DNA from: Tritonibacter scottomollicae
GTDB lineage: Bacteria; Pseudomonadota; Alphaproteobacteria; Rhodobacterales; Rhodobacteraceae
Assembly (NCBI RefSeq): GCF_003003215.1
Contig: NZ_PVUF01000003.1
Location: 1 to 64,000 of the forward strand
DNA length: 64,000 nt
Direction of reading: 5' to 3'
Shown one piece after another: positions 2,471 to 62,897 of this stretch (within the stretch, counting starts at the first letter, position 1; each line of letters opens with the position of its first letter). A program made the position numbers and the translations under genes. Under the pieces are notes generated by a model. The model did no database searches. It had not been told where the DNA came from and worked only from the letters and a program-made list of their open reading frames with translations.

Positions 2471-2872
2471 TTACGTTTTTGCGCCCTGTTTTGGCGGAGT
2501 GCCTGCGCCTTCCTTCGGCAACGCGCTTGCGGGCTTTTCCGTCTTTTTCTCCAGTGCGGGTGGCGTGTTTTCAGCTTCTGCAGCCAGCGCCGCTTCCCGC
2601 GCCGCAAGCGCCTCTTCGCGCGCCTTCAGGTCGGCGTCGCGCGCATCCAGCTCGCCCCCCTTGGTTTCGAGTTCTGCACGCGCATCGGCGATCATCTGTT
2701 CGGCAGCGGTGGTGTCCACGCTCAGCGCTTCGACGGTCTTGGAGGCGTCCGGGTCATAGGGTTTGCACACGCCCTGCGGCCATTTTGCGATGGTTGCGGC
2801 ATCAAATCCGGCAACGTCGCCTTTGACGTAGCGGCCATGAGTTTTCAGAAATTCAACGATGAGTTTTGCCAT
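2471..2872 (-). CDS. Coiled-coil phage head-associated protein, unknown role
   Basis: A 133-residue protein. The N-terminus (MAKLIVEFLKTHGRYVKGDVAGFD) looks like the small beta domain found in several phage head-associated proteins. Residues 55-100 form an alanine/glutamate-rich predicted coiled coil (DARDADLKAREEALAAREA), and the C-terminus is a Pro/Lys/Ala-rich tail. The gene lies between capsid and connector. A minor capsid, decoration or scaffold-related role is plausible but inferred only from position. The gap of 71 bases to the capsid gene holds no gene. Confidence 0.65.
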   Translation of the reverse strand: MAKLIVEFLKTHGRYVKGDVAGFDAATIAKWPQGVCKPYDPDASKTVEALSVDTTAAEQMIADARAELETKGGELDARDADLKAREEALAAREAALAAEAENTPPALEKKTEKPASALPKEGAGTPPKQGAKT

Positions 2873-2943
2873 ATCAGCAGTCCTTGTCAGAGTGGGGTAA
2901 GACCCCGGCGCGCGCCGCCGGGATCAGGAGTTCAATGAAGGGA

Positions 2944-4257
2944 TCAGAGCGACCAGGCGACGCCGTTCAGGCCGGCGATGGCCTCATCATGCGCAGGCGC
3001 CATGTCGTGCTCCGCGATCGCGCGCATCAGGGTCAGATCACGCTGGAACGCGTGGACCTCGTTGCCAGACTGATCCGTGAAGGACGCCTGCGTGCTGGTT
3101 TCGAAGGTGATGTCCATGGTGTCGCCGATCATGATCTCGGCGAAGTCAGCAAAATAGACCTCGGTCTCATTCCCACCCGCGCCCAAGTTATCGGGGATCT
3201 GGGACGTTTTCCGGATGGGGGCACCATGCAGCACCCCGCTATCGTCAATGGACGGGAACACCTTGAAGCCGTTGGCCCACCGCAGGCTGGCCAGGAAGTT
3301 CTTGGCCGACCCTCGCATGATCCAGCCCGGCGTGGTCATCGCCACATTGGCGTCCTCAACTTTGCTGACGATGCGGCGGATTGCCTGTTCGACCACAGCC
3401 GGGTCAGTGCCCGCAACCGCATCTTGCCAATGCTCCGCCAGCGCCCAGCTCCGCAGCCCCTTCGGGGTGTTGCCACTGCCGTCGAAACGCAGGAAAGCCA
3501 GATCGTTCTTCAGGGCCATTTCTTTGAGAATATCATCGCGAACGGTCTGGGCGATGGAGGCGCTGGAATGGCGCAACAGAGAATTGCCCAGCGGCACCAA
3601 TGTGGTCAGCTTCTTGAACTTCTCTTCAACCTTGTCAAAGGTCGGCTCACTTTCAACGATTCCGGCATTTTCTGCACCGTAGGCTGCAGAGGAAGAGGTG
3701 GCCTGACGGGCATTCCGTAGTTCGCCTGCCGGCATGTCGTGGACGCGCGCACCCGAAGCGCGCACTGTGATACGCGGACGCAAAAGCGCAATCATCTGCT
3801 GCGCCTGTGGGCGTGGCAGGGTCACGCCACCGGCGCTCTCGGTAGCACCGGAGAGCGCCGCTGAAATTGCGCTGTGACCATCCCGCTCCAGCCGCGCCAC
3901 CGCGCGGTCCCGATCCCCTTTGCAGTTGATCAGCGCATGCGCCATGAATCCAACCTCAATCCCTTCGTACTCCGGGTCTTTCGGCATTGCCGGCGCGGCC
4001 TGTGGTGCGGCAGAGCCGGTGGTGTCGAGTTCGGATGTGGCGGTGGCCGCCTTGGCGCGCTCAACCGCTTCGGCCCGCGTCACCTTGACCTGCAGCGCCT
4101 TGAACTCGCCCTCAGCGGTCTCGAAGGCCGCAACCGCCGCCTCCAGCGCACCGGCCTCCGCGTCGTCCTGCGCCTCCAGGTCTTCAATCGCCTTGGCCTT
4201 GTCACCCATGGCGTCCGCCGCAGCCTTCAGCATGCGGCGCAGATCGTTGATGTCCAT
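2944..4257 (-). CDS. HK97-fold major capsid protein
   Basis: A 437-residue phage major capsid protein. Residues 1 to about 80 are a helical, Glu/Ala-rich delta domain, which in HK97 acts as the internal scaffold removed by the head protease. The C-terminal part carries the capsid pattern, including GGVTLPRPQAQQMIALLR, AYGAENAGIVES, TLVPLGNSLLRHS and FADFAEIMIGDTMDI. The gene directly follows the S49 protease gene, consistent with cleavage during head maturation. Confidence 0.93.
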   Translation of the reverse strand: MDINDLRRMLKAAADAMGDKAKAIEDLEAQDDAEAGALEAAVAAFETAEGEFKALQVKVTRAEAVERAKAATATSELDTTGSAAPQAAPAMPKDPEYEGIEVGFMAHALINCKGDRDRAVARLERDGHSAISAALSGATESAGGVTLPRPQAQQMIALLRPRITVRASGARVHDMPAGELRNARQATSSSAAYGAENAGIVESEPTFDKVEEKFKKLTTLVPLGNSLLRHSSASIAQTVRDDILKEMALKNDLAFLRFDGSGNTPKGLRSWALAEHWQDAVAGTDPAVVEQAIRRIVSKVEDANVAMTTPGWIMRGSAKNFLASLRWANGFKVFPSIDDSGVLHGAPIRKTSQIPDNLGAGGNETEVYFADFAEIMIGDTMDITFETSTQASFTDQSGNEVHAFQRDLTLMRAIAEHDMAPAHDEAIAGLNGVAWSL

Positions 4258-56562: not shown

Positions 56563-56688
56563 CACAGCACCCGCCTTTTTGCACCCGCTACCTTGACCTC
56601 ACCGCCCCCCTCCGCCAAACAGCTCTCACACATATAACCCGCAACCGGGCGTTCAGTGGGCGCCAAACCGACGAGGAGAGCCAAGATA

Positions 56689-58635
56689 ATGGCCCAAGTC
56701 TCCCTTACATTCCCCGATGGCAACGCACGGTCCTATGACGCAGGCATCACCCCTGCTGAGGTCGCCGCCGACATCTCCACCTCGCTTGCCAAAAAGGCCA
56801 TCTCCGCCACCGTGGACGGTCAGCACTGGGATCTCCAGTGGCCGATCACTGCCGACGCCGCGATCGCCCTTCACACCATGAAGGACGAGGCGCAGGCCAA
56901 CGAGCTCATCCGCCACGACCTCGCCCATATCATGGCGCGCGCCGTGCAGGAGATCTGGCCCGACACCAAGGTCACCATCGGCCCGGTGATCGAGAACGGC
57001 TGGTATTACGATTTCGACCGGAAGGAGCCCTTCACTCCCGAAGATCTCGGCACCATCGAAAAGAAGATGAAAGAGATCATCAACAAGCGCGAGCCGGTGA
57101 CCACCGAGGTCTGGGACCGCGCAAAGGCGGTGCAGTATTATACCGACAACAACGAGCCCTATAAGGTCGAGCTGATCGACGCCATTCCCGGCGACGAGCC
57201 GCTGCGCATGTACTGGCACGGCGACTGGCAGGACCTCTGCCGGGGTCCGCACCTGCAGCACACCGGCCAGGTGCCGGGCGATGCGTTCAAGCTGATGTCG
57301 ATCGCGGGCGCCTATTGGCGCGGCGACAGCGACCGCGCCATGCTGCAGCGCATCTACGGCGTCGCCTTCACCGGCAAGGAGAAGCTCAAGGCCCATCTGA
57401 CCATGCTGGAAGAGGCCGCCAAGCGCGACCACCGCAAGCTGGGCCGCGAGATGAACCTGTTCCACATGCAGGAAGAGGCCCCGGGTCAGATCTTCTGGCA
57501 CCCCAACGGCTGGAAAATCTACACCACCCTGCAGGACTACATGCGCCGGATGCAGGACCGCGACGGCTATGTCGAGGTCAACACCCCGCAGGTGGTCGAC
57601 CGCAAGCTCTGGGAGGCCTCGGGCCACTGGGACAAATACCAGGAAAACATGTTCATCGTTGAGGTCGACGAGGACCACGCCCGTGAAAAGGCGGTGAACG
57701 CGCTGAAGCCAATGAACTGCCCCTGCCACGTTCAGGTCTTCAACCAGGGTCTGAAATCCTACCGCGACCTGCCCCTGCGCATGGCGGAGTTCGGCTCCTG
57801 CGCGCGCTATGAACCCTCGGGCGCGCTGCATGGCATCATGCGGGTGCGCGGCTTTACCCAGGACGATGGCCATATCTTCTGCGCCGAGGATCAGATCGAA
57901 TCCGAGACCGCAAAATTCATCGCCTTCCTGTCAAAGGTCTATGCCGATCTCGGCTTTCACGACTGGACCATCAAACTGTCGACCCGCCCCGAAAAGCGCA
58001 TCGGCAGCGACGAGAGCTGGGATCTGGTGGAAAAGGCGCTGGGGGATGCCTGCAAGGCCGCCGGCTACGAGTATGAGCTGCTGGAAGGCGAAGGCGCCTT
58101 TTATGGCCCGAAGCTGGAATTCACCCTGACCGACGCCATCGGGCGCAACTGGCAATGCGGCACCCTGCAGGTGGACCCCAACCTGCCGGAACGTCTGGAT
58201 GCGAATTTCATCGGTCAAGACGGCAGCAAGCACCGCCCCTTCATGCTGCACCGCGCCACATTGGGCTCGTTTGAGCGTTTCATCGGCATCCTGATCGAGG
58301 AACACGCCGGCAAGCTGCCCTTCTGGCTGGCGCCGCGTCAGGTGGTGGTGGCCTCCATCACCTCCGAGGCGGATGACTATGTCAACGAGGTGGTCGAAAC
58401 CCTGCGCGCCGCCGGTGTGCGGGCCGAGGCTGACATCCGCAACGAGAAGATCAACTACAAGGTCCGCGAACACTCCGTGGGCAAGGTGCCGGTCATTCTC
58501 GCCGTCGGCCACCGCGAGGTCGAGGAGCGCAGCGTTTCGGTGCGGCGTCTGGGCGAAAAGCAGACCAAGGTGGAAAGCCTGGCAAATGTTACAGAAGAGC
58601 TGTCGCGCGCCGCGACGCCGCCGGATCTTCTGTAA
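56689..58635 (+). CDS. thrS: Threonyl-tRNA synthetase
   Basis: A 648-residue class II synthetase that charges tRNA-Thr. A TGS domain (about 1-60), the N2 editing domain with HDLAHIMA (about 80-84, metal-site His), the catalytic core with [10 protein letters not shown] (zinc Cys), [25 protein letters not shown] and [17 protein letters not shown], and the anticodon-binding C-terminus are all present. The start at 56689 is preferred over 56656 because the family begins [11 protein letters not shown]-like. GAGGAG precedes it. A terminator follows. Confidence 0.97.
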
Positions 58636-58659
58636 TAATTCCCCTCTGAAACTGAAACG

Positions 58660-58687
58660 AACGGCCCCCACTTGGGGGCCGTTTTGT
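58660..58687 (+). terminator. Rho-independent terminator of thrS
   Basis: Perfect 10-bp stem AACGGCCCCC (58660-58669), loop ACTT, GGGGGCCGTT (58674-58683), then TTG. It lies 24 bases after the stop, so the buf operon is transcribed separately. Confidence 0.88.
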
Positions 58688-58855
58688 TACAACAGGCCGA
58701 AATATCGCAAAAACAGCGGCTTGCGGGCAACGCCTCTCTGACATTGACTGACGCGGACGTGAGGCACGGCCGCGTGAGTTTATTTTCGCAACCCTCCCCG
58801 GTTAAGGTAGCCCTGTCACCAAAGACGACGCTCATCACTTCAGGAGGACACGCGT

Positions 58856-59161
58856 ATGTCGACCACCAAGAAAACCCTCGCCGTTGCTGGCGCCGTTGCC
58901 GCAGCTCTGACCGCCGTCACCACCACCCACGCCTCGGCGCAGGCCAAGGAAAAATGCTACGGCGTTTCCCTCGCAGGCCAGAACGACTGCGCCGCCGGTC
59001 CCGGCACCACCTGCGCCGGCACCTCCACCGTGGACTACCAGGGCAACGCCTGGACCCTGGTGGACAAGGGCACCTGCACCGAGATGGACCTGCCGGCAAT
59101 GGCCGATGGCACCGACCGCTCCGGCGCGCTGGAGCCGCTGGAACGCGACCTGCCAGCCTAA
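58856..59161 (+). CDS. bufA: Bufferin precursor (DUF2282, RiPP peptide)
   Basis: A 101-residue DUF2282 precursor. A signal peptide of about 28 residues (alanine/threonine-rich, ending ASA) is followed by the core starting [13 protein letters not shown]. Four conserved cysteines, C34, C45, C53 and C74, fit bufferins. In characterised systems the MNIO enzyme converts some of them to thiooxazoles and the peptide chelates copper. The EGKEKC motif is only partly kept (AKEKC). GGAGG lies 10 bases before the ATG. The C-terminus [10 protein letters not shown] is typical. Confidence 0.93.
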
Positions 59162-59295
59162 GGCCCAACGCCCGGACATCACGTCCGACGCATACAACGG
59201 GCGCGCACAACTCGGCGCGCCCGTCTCTCCCGGCCAAGGCCCGCCGGCTCTCCTGTTCTCCGCCTGATTCAGCCTGATCCAGAAAGAGATGCGCC

Positions 59296-60168
59296 ATGCT
59301 CACCCGCCCCGACCGCTCCCCGCGCCCAGACGCGCTGCCACATGCGCCCGGCGTCGGCTACAAGCCCCAGCATTTCCAGCATATTCTGGAGGATGCCGGA
59401 TCGGTCGAATGGCTGGAAATCCACGCCGAGAACTACATGGGCGATGGCGGCCGCCCGCTGGCGCAGCTGCGCCATCTGTCGCAACGCTTCGCCATTTCAG
59501 TGCATGGCGTCGGCCTGTCGATCGGCGGCGCAAGCCCGCTGGATCCAGATCACCTCGCCCGTCTCAAGCACCTCACGGATTGGCTGAATCCCGCGAGCTT
59601 TTCCGAACATCTCGCGTGGTCCACCCACGACAGCCATTTCTACAACGACCTGCTGCCGCTGCCTTATACCAACGCTACGCTGGCCCGTGTCTGCGATCAC
59701 ATCGATCAGGTGCAGGGCCTGCTGGGTCGCCAGATGCTGCTGGAAAACCCCTCCAGCTACCTCGCCTTTGCCGAGAGCACTTGGGAGGAACCCGCCTTTC
59801 TGCACGAGATTGCCAAACGCACTGGCTGCGGATTGCTGCTGGACGTCAACAACGTCTTTGTTTCCGCCACCAACCTCGGCTATCGCCCGCAGGACTACAT
59901 CGACGCCTACCCGCTTGATCTGGTAGGAGAAATCCATCTTGGCGGCCATGACGAGGACGAGGATGACCACGGCTCCCCGCTCTTGATCGACAGCCACGGC
60001 GCCGCGGTGGTGGACCCGGTCTGGGCGCTGCTGGACTACACGCTGGCCCGCTCCGGCCCCAAACCGACGCTGGTGGAATGGGACACCGATGTGCCCGACT
60101 GGGTGGTACTGGAGGCCGAGGCCGCCCGCGCCGCCGCTGCGCTGAACGCCGTAAAAATGGCCGCCTGA
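59296..60168 (+). CDS. bufB: MNIO (DUF692) bufferin-modifying oxidase
   Basis: A 290-residue DUF692-family multinuclear non-haem iron oxidase. Candidate iron-site residues lie in EIHAENY (41-47), SVHGVG (His70), FSEHLAW (His105), LLENPSSY (Glu150, Asn151), LLDVNN (Asp183), EIHLGGH (His214, His218) and VEWDTD (Glu261, Asp263). It modifies cysteines of the bufA peptide. It is followed by bufC with a TGATG overlap. 134 bases separate it from bufA; no gene is seen there. Confidence 0.94.
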
Positions 60169-60914
60169 TGTCGCGCGAGGATCAATTCACCCGCGCCATT
60201 CTGGACGCACGCCTGCCGGTGCCCGAGGGGCTGCTGGATGGCGCCGATCAGCCCGCTGGGCGGCGCTTCAGCGTCTATCGCAACAATGTCGCCGTCTCCC
60301 TGACCGAAGCACTGCATCAGGGCTTCCCCGTCATCACAAAGCTGCTGGGGCCGGAAAATATGGACGGGCTGGCCGCCCTCTATCTGCGCGCCCAGCCGCC
60401 GACCTCGCCCCTGATGATGCAGTATGGTGAGGGCTTTCCCGACTTTCTAGAAGGCCTCGAACAGCTCTCTCACCTCGGCTATCTCGGCGATGTGGCGCGG
60501 CTGGAACTGGCCCTGCGCCGCAGCTATCACGCCGCCGATGCACCGCCCCTCGACACGCTGCACCTCGGCACTTTGCCGCCCGACGAACTCATGGCCAGCC
60601 GACTCAGCTTCGCGCCCGCGATGGCCGTGCTGCGCTCGCCCTGGCCGATCCACGCCATCTGGGCCTATAATACCCATCCCGACGCGCCCAAGCCCGTTGC
60701 CCGCGCCGAGGATGTGCTGATTACCCGACCCGAATTCGACCCCATTCCGCAGCCTTTGCCCCCGGGCGGTGCGGACTGGATTGCCAGGCTTCAGGCAGGC
60801 GAGACCCTCGGCAGCGCGACCGAGGCCGTCACAAGTGATTTTCCCGATTTTGACCTCAGCGCCCCGCTGGCGCTCCTGATCGAGGGCTTGGCCCTCACCG
60901 ACCTCTCGCAATAG
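60168..60914 (+). CDS. bufC: BufC, DUF2063 partner protein
   Basis: A 248-residue DUF2063 protein. N-terminal region: FTRAILDARLPVPEGLL, then RRFSVYRNNVAVSLTEALHQGFPVITKLLG, an FxVYRNN motif that defines the family, and LGDVARLELALRRSYHA. In buf/hvf operons it is needed with BufB for peptide modification, probably delivering the precursor. The ATG overlaps the bufB stop, and the gene is followed after 8 bases by bufD. Confidence 0.92.
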   Translation: MSREDQFTRAILDARLPVPEGLLDGADQPAGRRFSVYRNNVAVSLTEALHQGFPVITKLLGPENMDGLAALYLRAQPPTSPLMMQYGEGFPDFLEGLEQLSHLGYLGDVARLELALRRSYHAADAPPLDTLHLGTLPPDELMASRLSFAPAMAVLRSPWPIHAIWAYNTHPDAPKPVARAEDVLITRPEFDPIPQPLPPGGADWIARLQAGETLGSATEAVTSDFPDFDLSAPLALLIEGLALTDLSQ

Positions 60915-60922
60915 GACTTCAT

Positions 60923-61486
60923 ATGAACGCCCTGATTTCTCTGCATAACGCCGCATTCGACCTGATCGAGCGCGCGGGCAATTGGCTGATGCCGCTGTTC
61001 GCCCGCTTCACCTTTGCCGCCGTGCTGCTGATCTACTACTGGAACTCCGGCCTGACCAAACTGGGCGATGGCCTCTTCGGCGTTGTCTCGCCCTCGATCG
61101 GCGCCTACAGCCAGATTTTCCCGAAACAGCTGGAGGCCGCGGGCTATGACGTCTCGCAGCTTGGCGTCTTCCACTGGGCCGTCGTCATGGCGGGCACCTA
61201 CGCCGAATTCATCCTGCCGCTGCTGATCGTCATCGGCTTTGCCACCCGTCTCGCTTCGCTGGGCATGATCGGCTTTGTGGTGATGCAATCGCTCACGGAC
61301 GTCTACGGCCACGGCGCCACCGATGCCAAGACGCTTGGCGCCTGGTTCGACCGCGCCTCCGACAGCACCATCATGGACCAGCGCCTGCTCTGGGTCTTTG
61401 TCCTGCTGGTGCTGGTGGTCAAGGGCGCCGGCGCGCTCTCGGTGGACGCCCTGCTGCGGCGGCGCCAGGACGATGCCAGCGCCTGA
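60923..61486 (+). CDS. bufD: BufD, DoxX-family membrane protein
   Basis: A 187-residue DoxX protein with four transmembrane segments (about 25-45, 85-105, 110-130 and 150-170). The segment LFARFTFAAVLLIYYWNSGLTKLGDG and FHWAVVMAGTYAEFILPLLIVIGFATRL are family-typical. DoxX proteins are usual fourth members of bufferin operons; their role there is not established. It ends before a strong terminator, which closes the operon. Confidence 0.88.
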   Translation: MNALISLHNAAFDLIERAGNWLMPLFARFTFAAVLLIYYWNSGLTKLGDGLFGVVSPSIGAYSQIFPKQLEAAGYDVSQLGVFHWAVVMAGTYAEFILPLLIVIGFATRLASLGMIGFVVMQSLTDVYGHGATDAKTLGAWFDRASDSTIMDQRLLWVFVLLVLVVKGAGALSVDALLRRRQDDASA

Positions 61487-61511
61487 GCCATCACCGTTCC
61501 CCCGTAAAATC

Positions 61512-61546
61512 ACGGCGCGCGAGGATCATGCCTCGCGCGCCGTTTT
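61512..61546 (+). terminator. Rho-independent terminator of the buf operon
   Basis: Perfect 13-bp stem ACGGCGCGCGAGG (61512-61524), loop ATCATG, CCTCGCGCGCCGT (61531-61543), then TTT. It lies 25 bases past bufD and also ends the convergent ArsC/Spx gene side. Confidence 0.85.
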
Positions 61547-61567
61547 CACTCAATCAAGCGCGTAGCT

Positions 61568-61885
61568 TCAGGCCACCCCAAGCACCGATTTTACATCCGC
61601 GGTCCAGCCGAGATAAAGCTGATCGCCCGTCTCGATCAGCGGTCGTTTCATCAGGCTTGGATGCTCTTTGACCAGCTCCAGCGGCGGGCGCGTCCGCTCG
61701 TCTTCACTCAAACTTCGCCATGTGGTTGAACGTGTGTTGAGGAATTTATCCGGAAATTGAGCATATGCCCGCTCAATAACCACCTCTGGAACACCGTCTT
61801 TCCGCACATCGACAAACACCGCATCCGGCAATGATTTCAGCGCCTTGCGGCACGTATCACATGTCTTCAACCCATATAGCTTCAC
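61568..61885 (-). CDS. ArsC/Spx-family thiol protein
   Basis: A 105-residue protein of the ArsC/Spx thioredoxin-like superfamily. The redox site is LKTCDTCRK (CxxC), with FVDVRKDGVP, FLNTRSTTWRSL and HPSLMKRPLIETGDQLYLGW. Members are arsenate reductases or Spx/YffB-type proteins; the double Cys favours the YffB-like group. A GTG start at 61885 with AGGGGA upstream is chosen because the family begins xKLYG; an ATG at 61903 is possible. Convergent with the buf operon. Confidence 0.85.
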   Translation of the reverse strand: MKLYGLKTCDTCRKALKSLPDAVFVDVRKDGVPEVVIERAYAQFPDKFLNTRSTTWRSLSEDERTRPPLELVKEHPSLMKRPLIETGDQLYLGWTADVKSVLGVA

Positions 61886-62059
61886 GACTGCTTCCCCTTG
61901 CATATGAAAGTTTCACACAATTTATGGTAGAGCCCCACCGATTTTCTTTGATTTTTCGAAACTGCGTGCCACACTCAAACTGGCTCTTTTGAATTAAAGG
62001 GCTTCGGTTATCGTGTTCCGGACACCATCCATCGGCTCCGGCACGCGTGGACGAAAGGT

Positions 62060-62079
62060 ACTTTGAGCATGCTCAAAGT
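62060..62079. repeat. 20-bp perfect palindrome upstream of cspA
   Basis: ACTTTGAGCATGCTCAAAGT is a perfect palindrome 29 bases upstream of the cold shock gene. It can form a hairpin in the leader or be a site for a dimeric protein. Confidence 0.6.
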
Positions 62080-62108
62080 GAAGTGCAAGTAAGAAGGAGA
62101 CACGGGAC

Positions 62109-62315
62109 ATGCCAACTGGCACCGTGAAATGGTTCAACACCACCAAGGGCTATGGTTTTATTGAACCCGAAGAGGGCGGCAAGGACGTGTTTGTCCATAT
62201 TTCCGCCGTCGAACGCTCTGGCCTGACCGGCCTGGCTGACAACCAAAAAGTGGGATATGAGCTGAGCGAAGGCCGAGATGGCCGCGAAATGGCCGGCGAT
62301 ATTCGCCTGCTCTGA
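62109..62315 (+). CDS. Cold shock protein (CspA family)
   Basis: A 68-residue CSD protein: RNP1-type KGYGFIEPE and RNP2-type VFVHISAVERS, with WFN near residue 9. It binds single-stranded RNA/DNA and acts as an RNA chaperone. AAGGAG lies 9 bases upstream. A structured leader (long gap of 205 bases with a palindrome) is expected for thermosensitive control. A GC-rich hairpin follows the gene. Confidence 0.95.
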   Translation: MPTGTVKWFNTTKGYGFIEPEEGGKDVFVHISAVERSGLTGLADNQKVGYELSEGRDGREMAGDIRLL

Positions 62316-62335
62316 GCCCTTCCCCCAAAATCACC

Positions 62336-62373
62336 GCTGCGCCCGAACTGCTTGTGTGTGGCTTGGGCGCAGC
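62336..62373. terminator. Hairpin after the cold shock gene
   Basis: GCTGCGCCC (62336-62344) and GGGCGCAGC (62365-62373): perfect 9-bp stem 21 bases past the stop. No strong T-run. It may also serve the convergent folA gene. Confidence 0.55.
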
Positions 62374-62414
62374 CGCGACTCTTTCAAAAATCAAAATACC
62401 ATCAGTGCTGATCG

Positions 62415-62897
62415 TCAGACAGGGTTCCGCAGGTACTCTGTCAGCACACAGGCTGGCGCGTCATCTCTGAGCGGAATTTTTGCCGCCACCCGCCAGGCCG
62501 TCTCGTCAAAGGTCGGGAAATAGGCATCAGCCTCGGCGATGTCCAGATCAACCTCGGTGATCATCAAACGGTCCGCCATCTCCAGCATCCCCTTGTAGAT
62601 CCCGGCACCACCGATCCCATAGATCCGAGCATAGCCCTCACTCCGCGCCAACGCTACCGCCTCCGCGATCGAGGAGACCACGGTCTCTGCCGCGTCTGGG
62701 TTCGACGATACGACAATATTCAGACGATTTTTCAACGGCTTGAACGGCAGAGAGTCCCAGGTATTGCGGCCCATGACAATGGCCCCGCCAGAGGTCTCAC
62801 GCTGAAACGCCTTCAGGTCCTCCGGCGCATGCCAGGGAATGTCGTTGTCCTTGCCGATGGCGCCATTGCGGGCCCGCGCGACGATGAGTGTGATCAT
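62415..62897 (-). CDS. folA: Dihydrofolate reductase
   Basis: A 160-residue FolA that regenerates tetrahydrofolate using NADPH. The signature is LIVARARNGAIGKDNDIPWHAPEDLKAF (with Asp/Trp near 20-27), IVMGRNTWDSL, and IYGIGGAGIYKGML (NADPH loop). It lies 27 bases downstream of thyA, so the two form an operon: thymidylate synthase makes dihydrofolate, which FolA recycles. Confidence 0.96.
   Translation of the reverse strand: MITLIVARARNGAIGKDNDIPWHAPEDLKAFQRETSGGAIVMGRNTWDSLPFKPLKNRLNIVVSSNPDAAETVVSSIAEAVALARSEGYARIYGIGGAGIYKGMLEMADRLMITEVDLDIAEADAYFPTFDETAWRVAAKIPLRDDAPACVLTEYLRNPV

Follow-up and report, generated by a model that had tools for sequence, protein, structure and literature searches.

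Bufferins are a recently recognised and widespread class of copper-handling peptides, and the control described for them in the papers cited here is by SigF/NrsF. Thiooxazole peptides sequester copper in the periplasm (PMC12452194; PMC13097082). The closest described operon, Buf1 of Caulobacter vibrioides (CC3254-3257, gig-type), has the domain order DUF2282, DUF692, DUF2063, DoxX and a four-Cys precursor (PMC3511200). The Caulobacter buf genes are SigF-dependent, the SigF promoter consensus being GTAACC-N16-CGAA (PMC3511200), and copper-induced, and a sigF mutant is copper-sensitive (PMC8224329). Fontiphorin/oxazolin and the Buf2 captophorins likewise combine an MNIO enzyme and a PME1 partner with thiooxazole peptides bearing a signal peptide, but they are other precursor families, and the EGKCG repeat belongs to another such group (PMC12452194, PMC13097082).

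The window analysed here is a stretch of 64,000 nt from Tritonibacter scottomollicae (contig NZ_PVUF01000003.1, positions 1 to 64,000). It holds a complete bufABCD operon at positions 58856-61486, with four + strand genes for a DUF2282 precursor, an MNIO enzyme, a DUF2063 partner and a DoxX protein; by its sequence this is a Buf1-type bufferin operon, i.e. of an already known kind. Its domain order and four-Cys precursor are those of C. vibrioides Buf1, and the precursor belongs to DUF2282 with no EGKCG repeat, unlike those of fontiphorin/oxazolin and the captophorins. Two differences from C. vibrioides stand out: BufA has a conserved tail ending RDLPA, and the adjoining sigF-nrsF genes and GTAACC-N16-CGAA promoter of Caulobacter are both missing, but a double palindrome lies upstream. 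This conserved promoter element, missed by an earlier sequence-only reading of the window, is the unusual part of the locus. That reading was correct on the operon and on the missing sigma pair; what it made of an AKEKC motif, the four Cys and a downstream neighbour did not hold up.

A double palindrome and the SigF/NrsF pair

The element, TGACG-N4-CGTGA-N2-CACG-N4-CGTGA, is 29 bp long, lies at 58749..58777 on the + strand, and is a putative operator. It was noticed by eye, and an iterative fit seeded with it reached 29.8 bits over 32 columns, with the consensus TnACG-N4-CGTGA-N2-CACn-N5-CGTGA, i.e. two palindromes spaced 15 bp. With a position weight matrix (PWM) it scores 41.2 and is, its own reverse apart, the sole site over 8 in the window.

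We scored 139 loci of the family Rhodobacteraceae, namely 138 fetched loci and the window (L250 was dropped, as its contig starts inside bufA with no start codon). A palindrome was called within 300 bp upstream of bufA at a PWM threshold of 5.6, the 99th percentile of 1000 simulated sequences. It is present at 97 of the 123 loci with no NrsF in the fetched stretch and at none of the 16 NrsF-linked loci (Fisher 4e-10, relatedness not corrected). Broken down further by linkage to the threonyl-tRNA synthetase gene thrS, the counts are 88/99 for thrS-linked loci with no NrsF, 9/24 where neither is nearby, 0/14 for NrsF with no thrS and 0/2 for both. A count of the plain pattern (up to 4 mismatches in 17) gave 87/99, 11/24, 1/14 and 0/2 for the same classes, with 5/1000 among simulated sequences.

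The NrsF-linked loci (such as L204, L214 and L337) have the same operon, and two of them, L214 and L337, occupy the same thrS-adjacent site as the window. They differ in that NrsF adjoins, upstream in 14 and downstream in two (L285, L335), together with a gene for an extracytoplasmic function (ECF) sigma factor in the three loci examined for it (L204, L214, L337), and in having no double palindrome. The SigF-type promoter GTAACn-N16-CGAA follows the reverse pattern: 10 of the 16 NrsF-linked loci have it, as does one of the 26 others (L237), and none of the 97 palindrome loci, among them the window. Both L237 and L212, with a looser match, are thrS-linked loci with no palindrome, and G375 and G335, the genomes they come from, have NrsF elsewhere. 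A SigF-like site read by eye in the window, GTAGCC-N16-CGCT, was rejected since relatives lack it.

A profile search of the window's own genome found no NrsF, while the Caulobacter positive control was found; sigma region 4 had 12 matches, nine of them over cut-off, so sigma factors are present and none adjoins buf. The trigger may thus differ from that of the described systems, as the sequence-only reading had proposed on noticing no linked sigma/anti-sigma pair. The mutual exclusion of the palindrome and adjacent sigF-nrsF is directly observed; in most roseobacter relatives examined, as judged from these sequences, the sigma switch is replaced by a conserved element scarce elsewhere in the genomes.

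Specificity, architecture and origin of the proposed switch

That scarcity bears on an alternative in which a stress or redox regulator of broad range binds the palindrome, with buf one of its many targets and general stress, not metal, as the trigger. In the own genome, of 4.68 Mb in 72 contigs, the 29-mer is matched with 0-1 mismatch once only, at 58749-58777. Across 21 genomes (this one, 12 congeners and eight others of the class), all 10 places with at most one mismatch lie upstream of bufA; two mismatches add two further bufA sites, the rest, reverse readings aside, lying away from bufA, and congener G012 has no buf palindrome site at that limit. Among 198 Rhodobacteraceae genomes, one per genus, matches with at most one mismatch occupy 59 distinct places in 56 genomes (the reversed pattern, none). 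Of these, 53 are at buf: 52 precede the DUF2282 domain by 153-194 nt and one lies between bufA and bufB. A match occurs in only one (G312) of the 58 genomes with no DUF2282.

The six non-buf sites fall in five loci, L369-L373. The two overlapping sites of L373 were rejected as promoter elements because they are a coding repeat, the L371 site because it is inside a LysR-like gene, and the L369 site, before a YkuD-type gene, as a full promoter because it has no TANNNT match; the L372 site has a PWM score of 14.4. Only L370 (genome G397; stretch 2775-3354) has the full architecture described below (PWM 31.8, TANNNT at offset 24), and there this promoter copy precedes the gene of a (seleno)protein with a YHS domain (NCBIfam NF041384) and a signal-like N-terminus. 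So at least one further target may exist, and weaker sites would evade an exact pattern search. Against this, a YHS paralogue (34% identical) on the megaplasmid of Ruegeria sp. TM1040 has no palindrome site (best PWM -12.9), and the matches are concentrated at buf; we regard such a regulator as possible though not favoured. Single palindromes number 27 in the own genome against 12 for the reversed pattern, and 21 of the 27 are inside predicted genes by a simple coding score and one is that of buf.

Two side observations concern these sites. In L370 a TetR/AefR-like regulator gene adjoins the YHS gene in convergent orientation. The match between bufA and bufB (G263:C9:6219-6247, about 3020-3048 of L277) lies just before bufB, where it may give the enzyme genes a promoter of their own.

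The palindrome has a fixed relation to a -10-like hexamer. In the window this is TAAGGT (TANNNT) at 58803..58808 on the + strand, at offset 25 after the 29-mer; of the 91 of 97 palindrome loci with PWM >15 that entered the spacing test, 52 have TANNNT at one of two offsets, 24 in 14 loci and 25 in 38, and no offset in shuffles exceeds 7. While this architecture is observed, we infer from it a transcription start near 58815 in the window, which would put the second palindrome around -44, a usual position for an activator site. The opposite arrangement, with a repressor sitting over the -35 region of a constitutive promoter that metal opens, draws on the element abutting the expected -35 region, on the suitability of palindromes for dimeric repressors, and on an extra inverted repeat (perfect stem of at least 5 bp) near the predicted start at 50 of the 97 loci, where shuffles give 23.3 +/- 4.1 and at most 35. 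Against it, a scan of 58000-62500, of weak power in this group, showed no sigma-70-type site, as expected for an activator-dependent promoter. We consider repression a live but minority possibility, on a par with the broad regulator, and activation the probable mode. The start-site repeat, [GA]TCGC-N5-GCGA[TC] or similar, is seen at 58809-58855 and in many relatives, is weak in the window (z 0.6), and would be a hairpin in the 5' mRNA or else a further operator.

The history of the switch was examined on a quick tree of BufB. On it the palindrome label requires 17 changes, where shuffling the labels raises the number to 35.2. Loci L214 and L337 have thrS, divergent sigF-nrsF and then buf, with a SigF-type promoter and no palindrome (in L214 the sigma factor and NrsF were confirmed by Pfam; in L337 NrsF was found by our own profile and the sigma gene by eye). 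Both lie inside palindrome groups, with support values (85 and 83) that fall short of star level, and this nesting suggests that sigF-nrsF was gained and the palindrome lost in two lineages. Another 11 of the 16 NrsF-linked loci share a separate branch (14 rows), and none has thrS nearby; these may represent a copy inherited separately. A bolder version is that roseobacters swapped the ECF sigma switch for an unlinked and dedicated metal sensor, of a kind not yet described, which reads the 29-bp double palindrome and has hardly any other target, and that at least two lineages reverted via sigF-nrsF at the same site with loss of the palindrome; we hold this tentatively, with the odds somewhat against it in full.

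In an operon common in a major marine bacterial group, one switch would have been swapped for another at a fixed place, and such a natural swap makes the regulator directly findable. Searches of the open-access literature found nothing linking DUF2282 to Ruegeria, nor Phaeobacter to copper and DUF692, and the papers they found on DUF2282 with copper and promoter, judged by title, include none on roseobacters. As far as that literature shows, the promoter swap is new; the operon itself is known, and common in the family.

Taken as a whole, a Buf1 operon making a copper peptide under a palindrome-bound, unlinked regulator instead of SigF/NrsF is in our view the probable explanation, with a good margin of confidence. 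Several points weigh against it. No palindrome was called in 26 of the 123 NrsF-free loci, and six of the 16 NrsF-linked loci lack a strict SigF-type promoter. The 80 loci that trained the PWM overlap in taxa with the 139 scored; reversed, the upstream sequences stay below -1.3 in 95% of cases, one reaching 14.8, above the 5.6 threshold, and L224, taken for a palindrome locus on a score of 7.5, was probably called falsely. Some genomes combine the two systems: G355 has NrsF elsewhere yet a palindrome of PWM 23.4, G329 an NrsF below cut-off with a palindrome of 25.5, and G318 a weak NrsF match with a doubtful palindrome call of 7.5; G283 and G330 have NrsF elsewhere and neither palindrome nor SigF-type promoter. 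The exclusion therefore holds by locus, not by genome. As for the regulator, none of the other five single palindromes of the own genome lies clearly before a regulator gene, and no recurrent regulator gene was seen upstream in 16 loci read by eye without family search (eight of the nine palindrome loci with no thrS nearby and eight thrS-linked loci with a wide gap). Only 16 of the 142 inner branches of the BufB tree are starred. For BufA, the sole NCBIfam match is to BufA2, at 20.2 bits against a cut-off of 60, and the structural model is poor (predicted local distance difference test, pLDDT, 53.5), too weak for use.

Operon proteins and proposed mechanism

All four genes lie in one direction and each falls in its named family by Pfam, which bears out the complete operon that the sequence-only reading had claimed. 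The bufA gene (58856..59161, +) encodes a Buf1-type precursor of 101 aa (DUF2282, E 1.9e-24). The MNIO maturase gene bufB (59296..60168, +; MbnB_TglH_ChrH, E 7.2e-104) is also identified by the NCBIfam equivalog MNIO_BufB, at 373.6 bits against a cut-off of 310; its stop codon is overlapped by the ATG of bufC (60168..60914, +; DUF2063 partner of PME type, E 1.3e-24), followed by doxX or bufD (60923..61486, +; membrane protein, DoxX E 3.8e-6). NCBIfam matches of BufA, BufC and DoxX were to the models of other groups alone, all under cut-off. Compared with sequences of the Protein Data Bank, BufB is matched by 3BWW (E 8.1e-44) and less strongly by MbnB structures and the MNIO of 8HCI; neither BufC (best E 0.33) nor BufA has a significant match there. 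The BufC model (pLDDT 93.5) matches in fold chain A of 8hci/8hi7 (TglHI) and 3DEE. The own genome has one DUF2282 and one MNIO gene, and an Rfam scan of 58600-61600 at gathering thresholds gave no match.

The Cys of BufA are residues 34, 45, 53 and 74, and 134 of the 139 loci have four. All four had been proposed as modification sites; the expectation is corrected by published Buf1, where the two central Cys alone are modified and the first and last form a disulphide (PMC12452194). By this analogy C45 (codon 58988-58990, +) and C53 (codon 59012-59014, +) are the expected thiooxazoles, and C34-C74 the expected disulphide. At the N-terminus, KK, a hydrophobic stretch and A-S-A before Q29 can be read from the sequence (the poor model has a helix at 3-22), making residues 1-28 a likely signal peptide with an AxA site; there is preliminary support for the signal peptide as part of the recognition sequence (PMC12452194). 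Nor does AKEKC, which the sequence-only reading had set against EGKEKC, mark a distinct clade: in a survey of DUF2282 homologues, 130 of the 139 loci have xEKC ahead of their first domain Cys, with AKEKC the commonest variant (38) and GKEKC in six.

After C74 comes the conserved tail (59078..59158, +). In alignment A1 (the window and 39 of 80 loci; a second, A2, took 29 of the 80, the loci being hand-chosen) L79, P80, R88, G90, L92, L95, R97, D98 and P100 are invariant in all 40 sequences. The motif RD[LIVMF]P is found in 126 of the 139 family loci, including 10 of the 16 NrsF-linked ones, and occurs in two (L132, L141) of 28 loci from other families, most of which have short tails. On these counts the long tail is typical of Rhodobacteraceae, not exclusive to it; it may help in peptide recognition by BufBC.

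In the mechanism we propose, the unlinked DNA-binding protein, probably an activator, would bind the double palindrome, which lies directly ahead of the -35/-10 region. BufB, a multi-iron MNIO, and BufC, the partner holding the peptide, would then convert C45 and C53 into 5-thiooxazoles in the cytoplasm; BufA would be exported by Sec, form the C34-C74 disulphide and chelate excess copper in the periplasm, with DoxX assisting in a manner that we leave undefined. This function of periplasmic copper sequestration is assigned by family, and the chemistry and the ligand are put forward by analogy, while the trigger is a proposal. Might the peptide act in oxidative stress, or on a metal other than copper? 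Responses of related operons to gold, silver, chromate and cadmium are on record (PMC3511200, PMC8224329), and L340, a locus with no thrS, lies beside msrA/msrB-like genes (read by eye). We think this rather unlikely, as published work on the Caulobacter Buf1 relative and on other thiooxazole peptides reports copper binding and a copper phenotype (PMC12452194, PMC13097082).

A hairpin with a perfect 10-bp stem lies between bufA and bufB (59197..59224, +; window spacer z -2.7) and may favour precursor over enzyme. Perfect stems of at least 8 bp occur in 63 of the 106 loci (of 138) having a spacer of at least 40 nt, start codons being picked mechanically; shuffles gave a mean of 2.0 and a maximum of 4.

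Flanking genes and distribution

Upstream and outside the operon lies thrS (56689..58635, +), named from its sequence, its open reading frame being listed from an earlier GTG at 56656. A terminator-like hairpin follows it (58660..58683, +; 10-bp stem, z -3.9), and another follows doxX (61512..61543, +; 13-bp stem, z -4.6). These had been called perfect terminators: strong hairpins they are, but "perfect" slightly overstates the case, as the U-tracts are short (GTTTTGTT after thrS, GTTTTC after doxX), and a terminator scan found neither hairpin on the + strand and the thrS hairpin on the - strand alone. Beyond the doxX hairpin is a convergent gene for an ArsC/Spx-family thiol protein (61568..61903, -; Pfam ArsC E 5.1e-13), once taken as a hint of another metal. 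Being convergent and separated by the hairpin it was rejected as a member of the system, and its position is conserved synteny, with an ArsC/Spx-like gene downstream on the opposite strand in 92 of the 139 loci. Neighbour and gene counts over these loci are lower bounds, as some contigs end early; thrS is within the fetched upstream stretch in 101, and thrS and the ArsC-like gene are both present in 88, from which the thrS-buf-arsC-like block appears old and probably vertically inherited.

That the palindrome belongs to thrS, as a 3' end, terminator or phylogenetic leftover unrelated to buf, is very improbable even with thrS as upstream neighbour in 88 of the 97 palindrome loci, since its spacing is tight to bufA (10-90% range -126 to -106) and loose to the thrS end (93 to 517), it is missing from the two thrS loci where sigF-nrsF adjoins buf, and eight of 38 loci with no thrS nearby keep it (PWM >13, at -94 to -143 from bufA), so that it travels with buf, not thrS.

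The system is not rare in Rhodobacteraceae. BufA relatives number at least 543 in 590 genome-contig stretches, of which the best 80 were kept. DUF2282 is found in 140 of the 198 Rhodobacteraceae genomes and NrsF in 29 (28 over cut-off), 23 of which also carry DUF2282 by hand count; for 190 alphaproteobacterial genomes the numbers are 65 with DUF2282, 38 with NrsF and 25 with both. Of the 139 family loci, 138 have bufB, 136 bufC and 133 doxX, and bufABCD lie on one strand in 133, far beyond chance.

We lastly note some peculiar loci: (i) L229 (G208) and L284 (G300) have two tandem DUF2282 precursor genes ahead of a single bufB. (ii) L341 (G330) has a DUF2282 gene with two Cys only, and no bufBCD match within the fetched stretch. 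(iii) In Tritonibacter mobilis a thrS-buf-arsC-like-csp block whose palindrome has a PWM score of 41.4 is carried on p2 (1.19 Mb, L375), a record called a plasmid, which is an unusual location for thrS.

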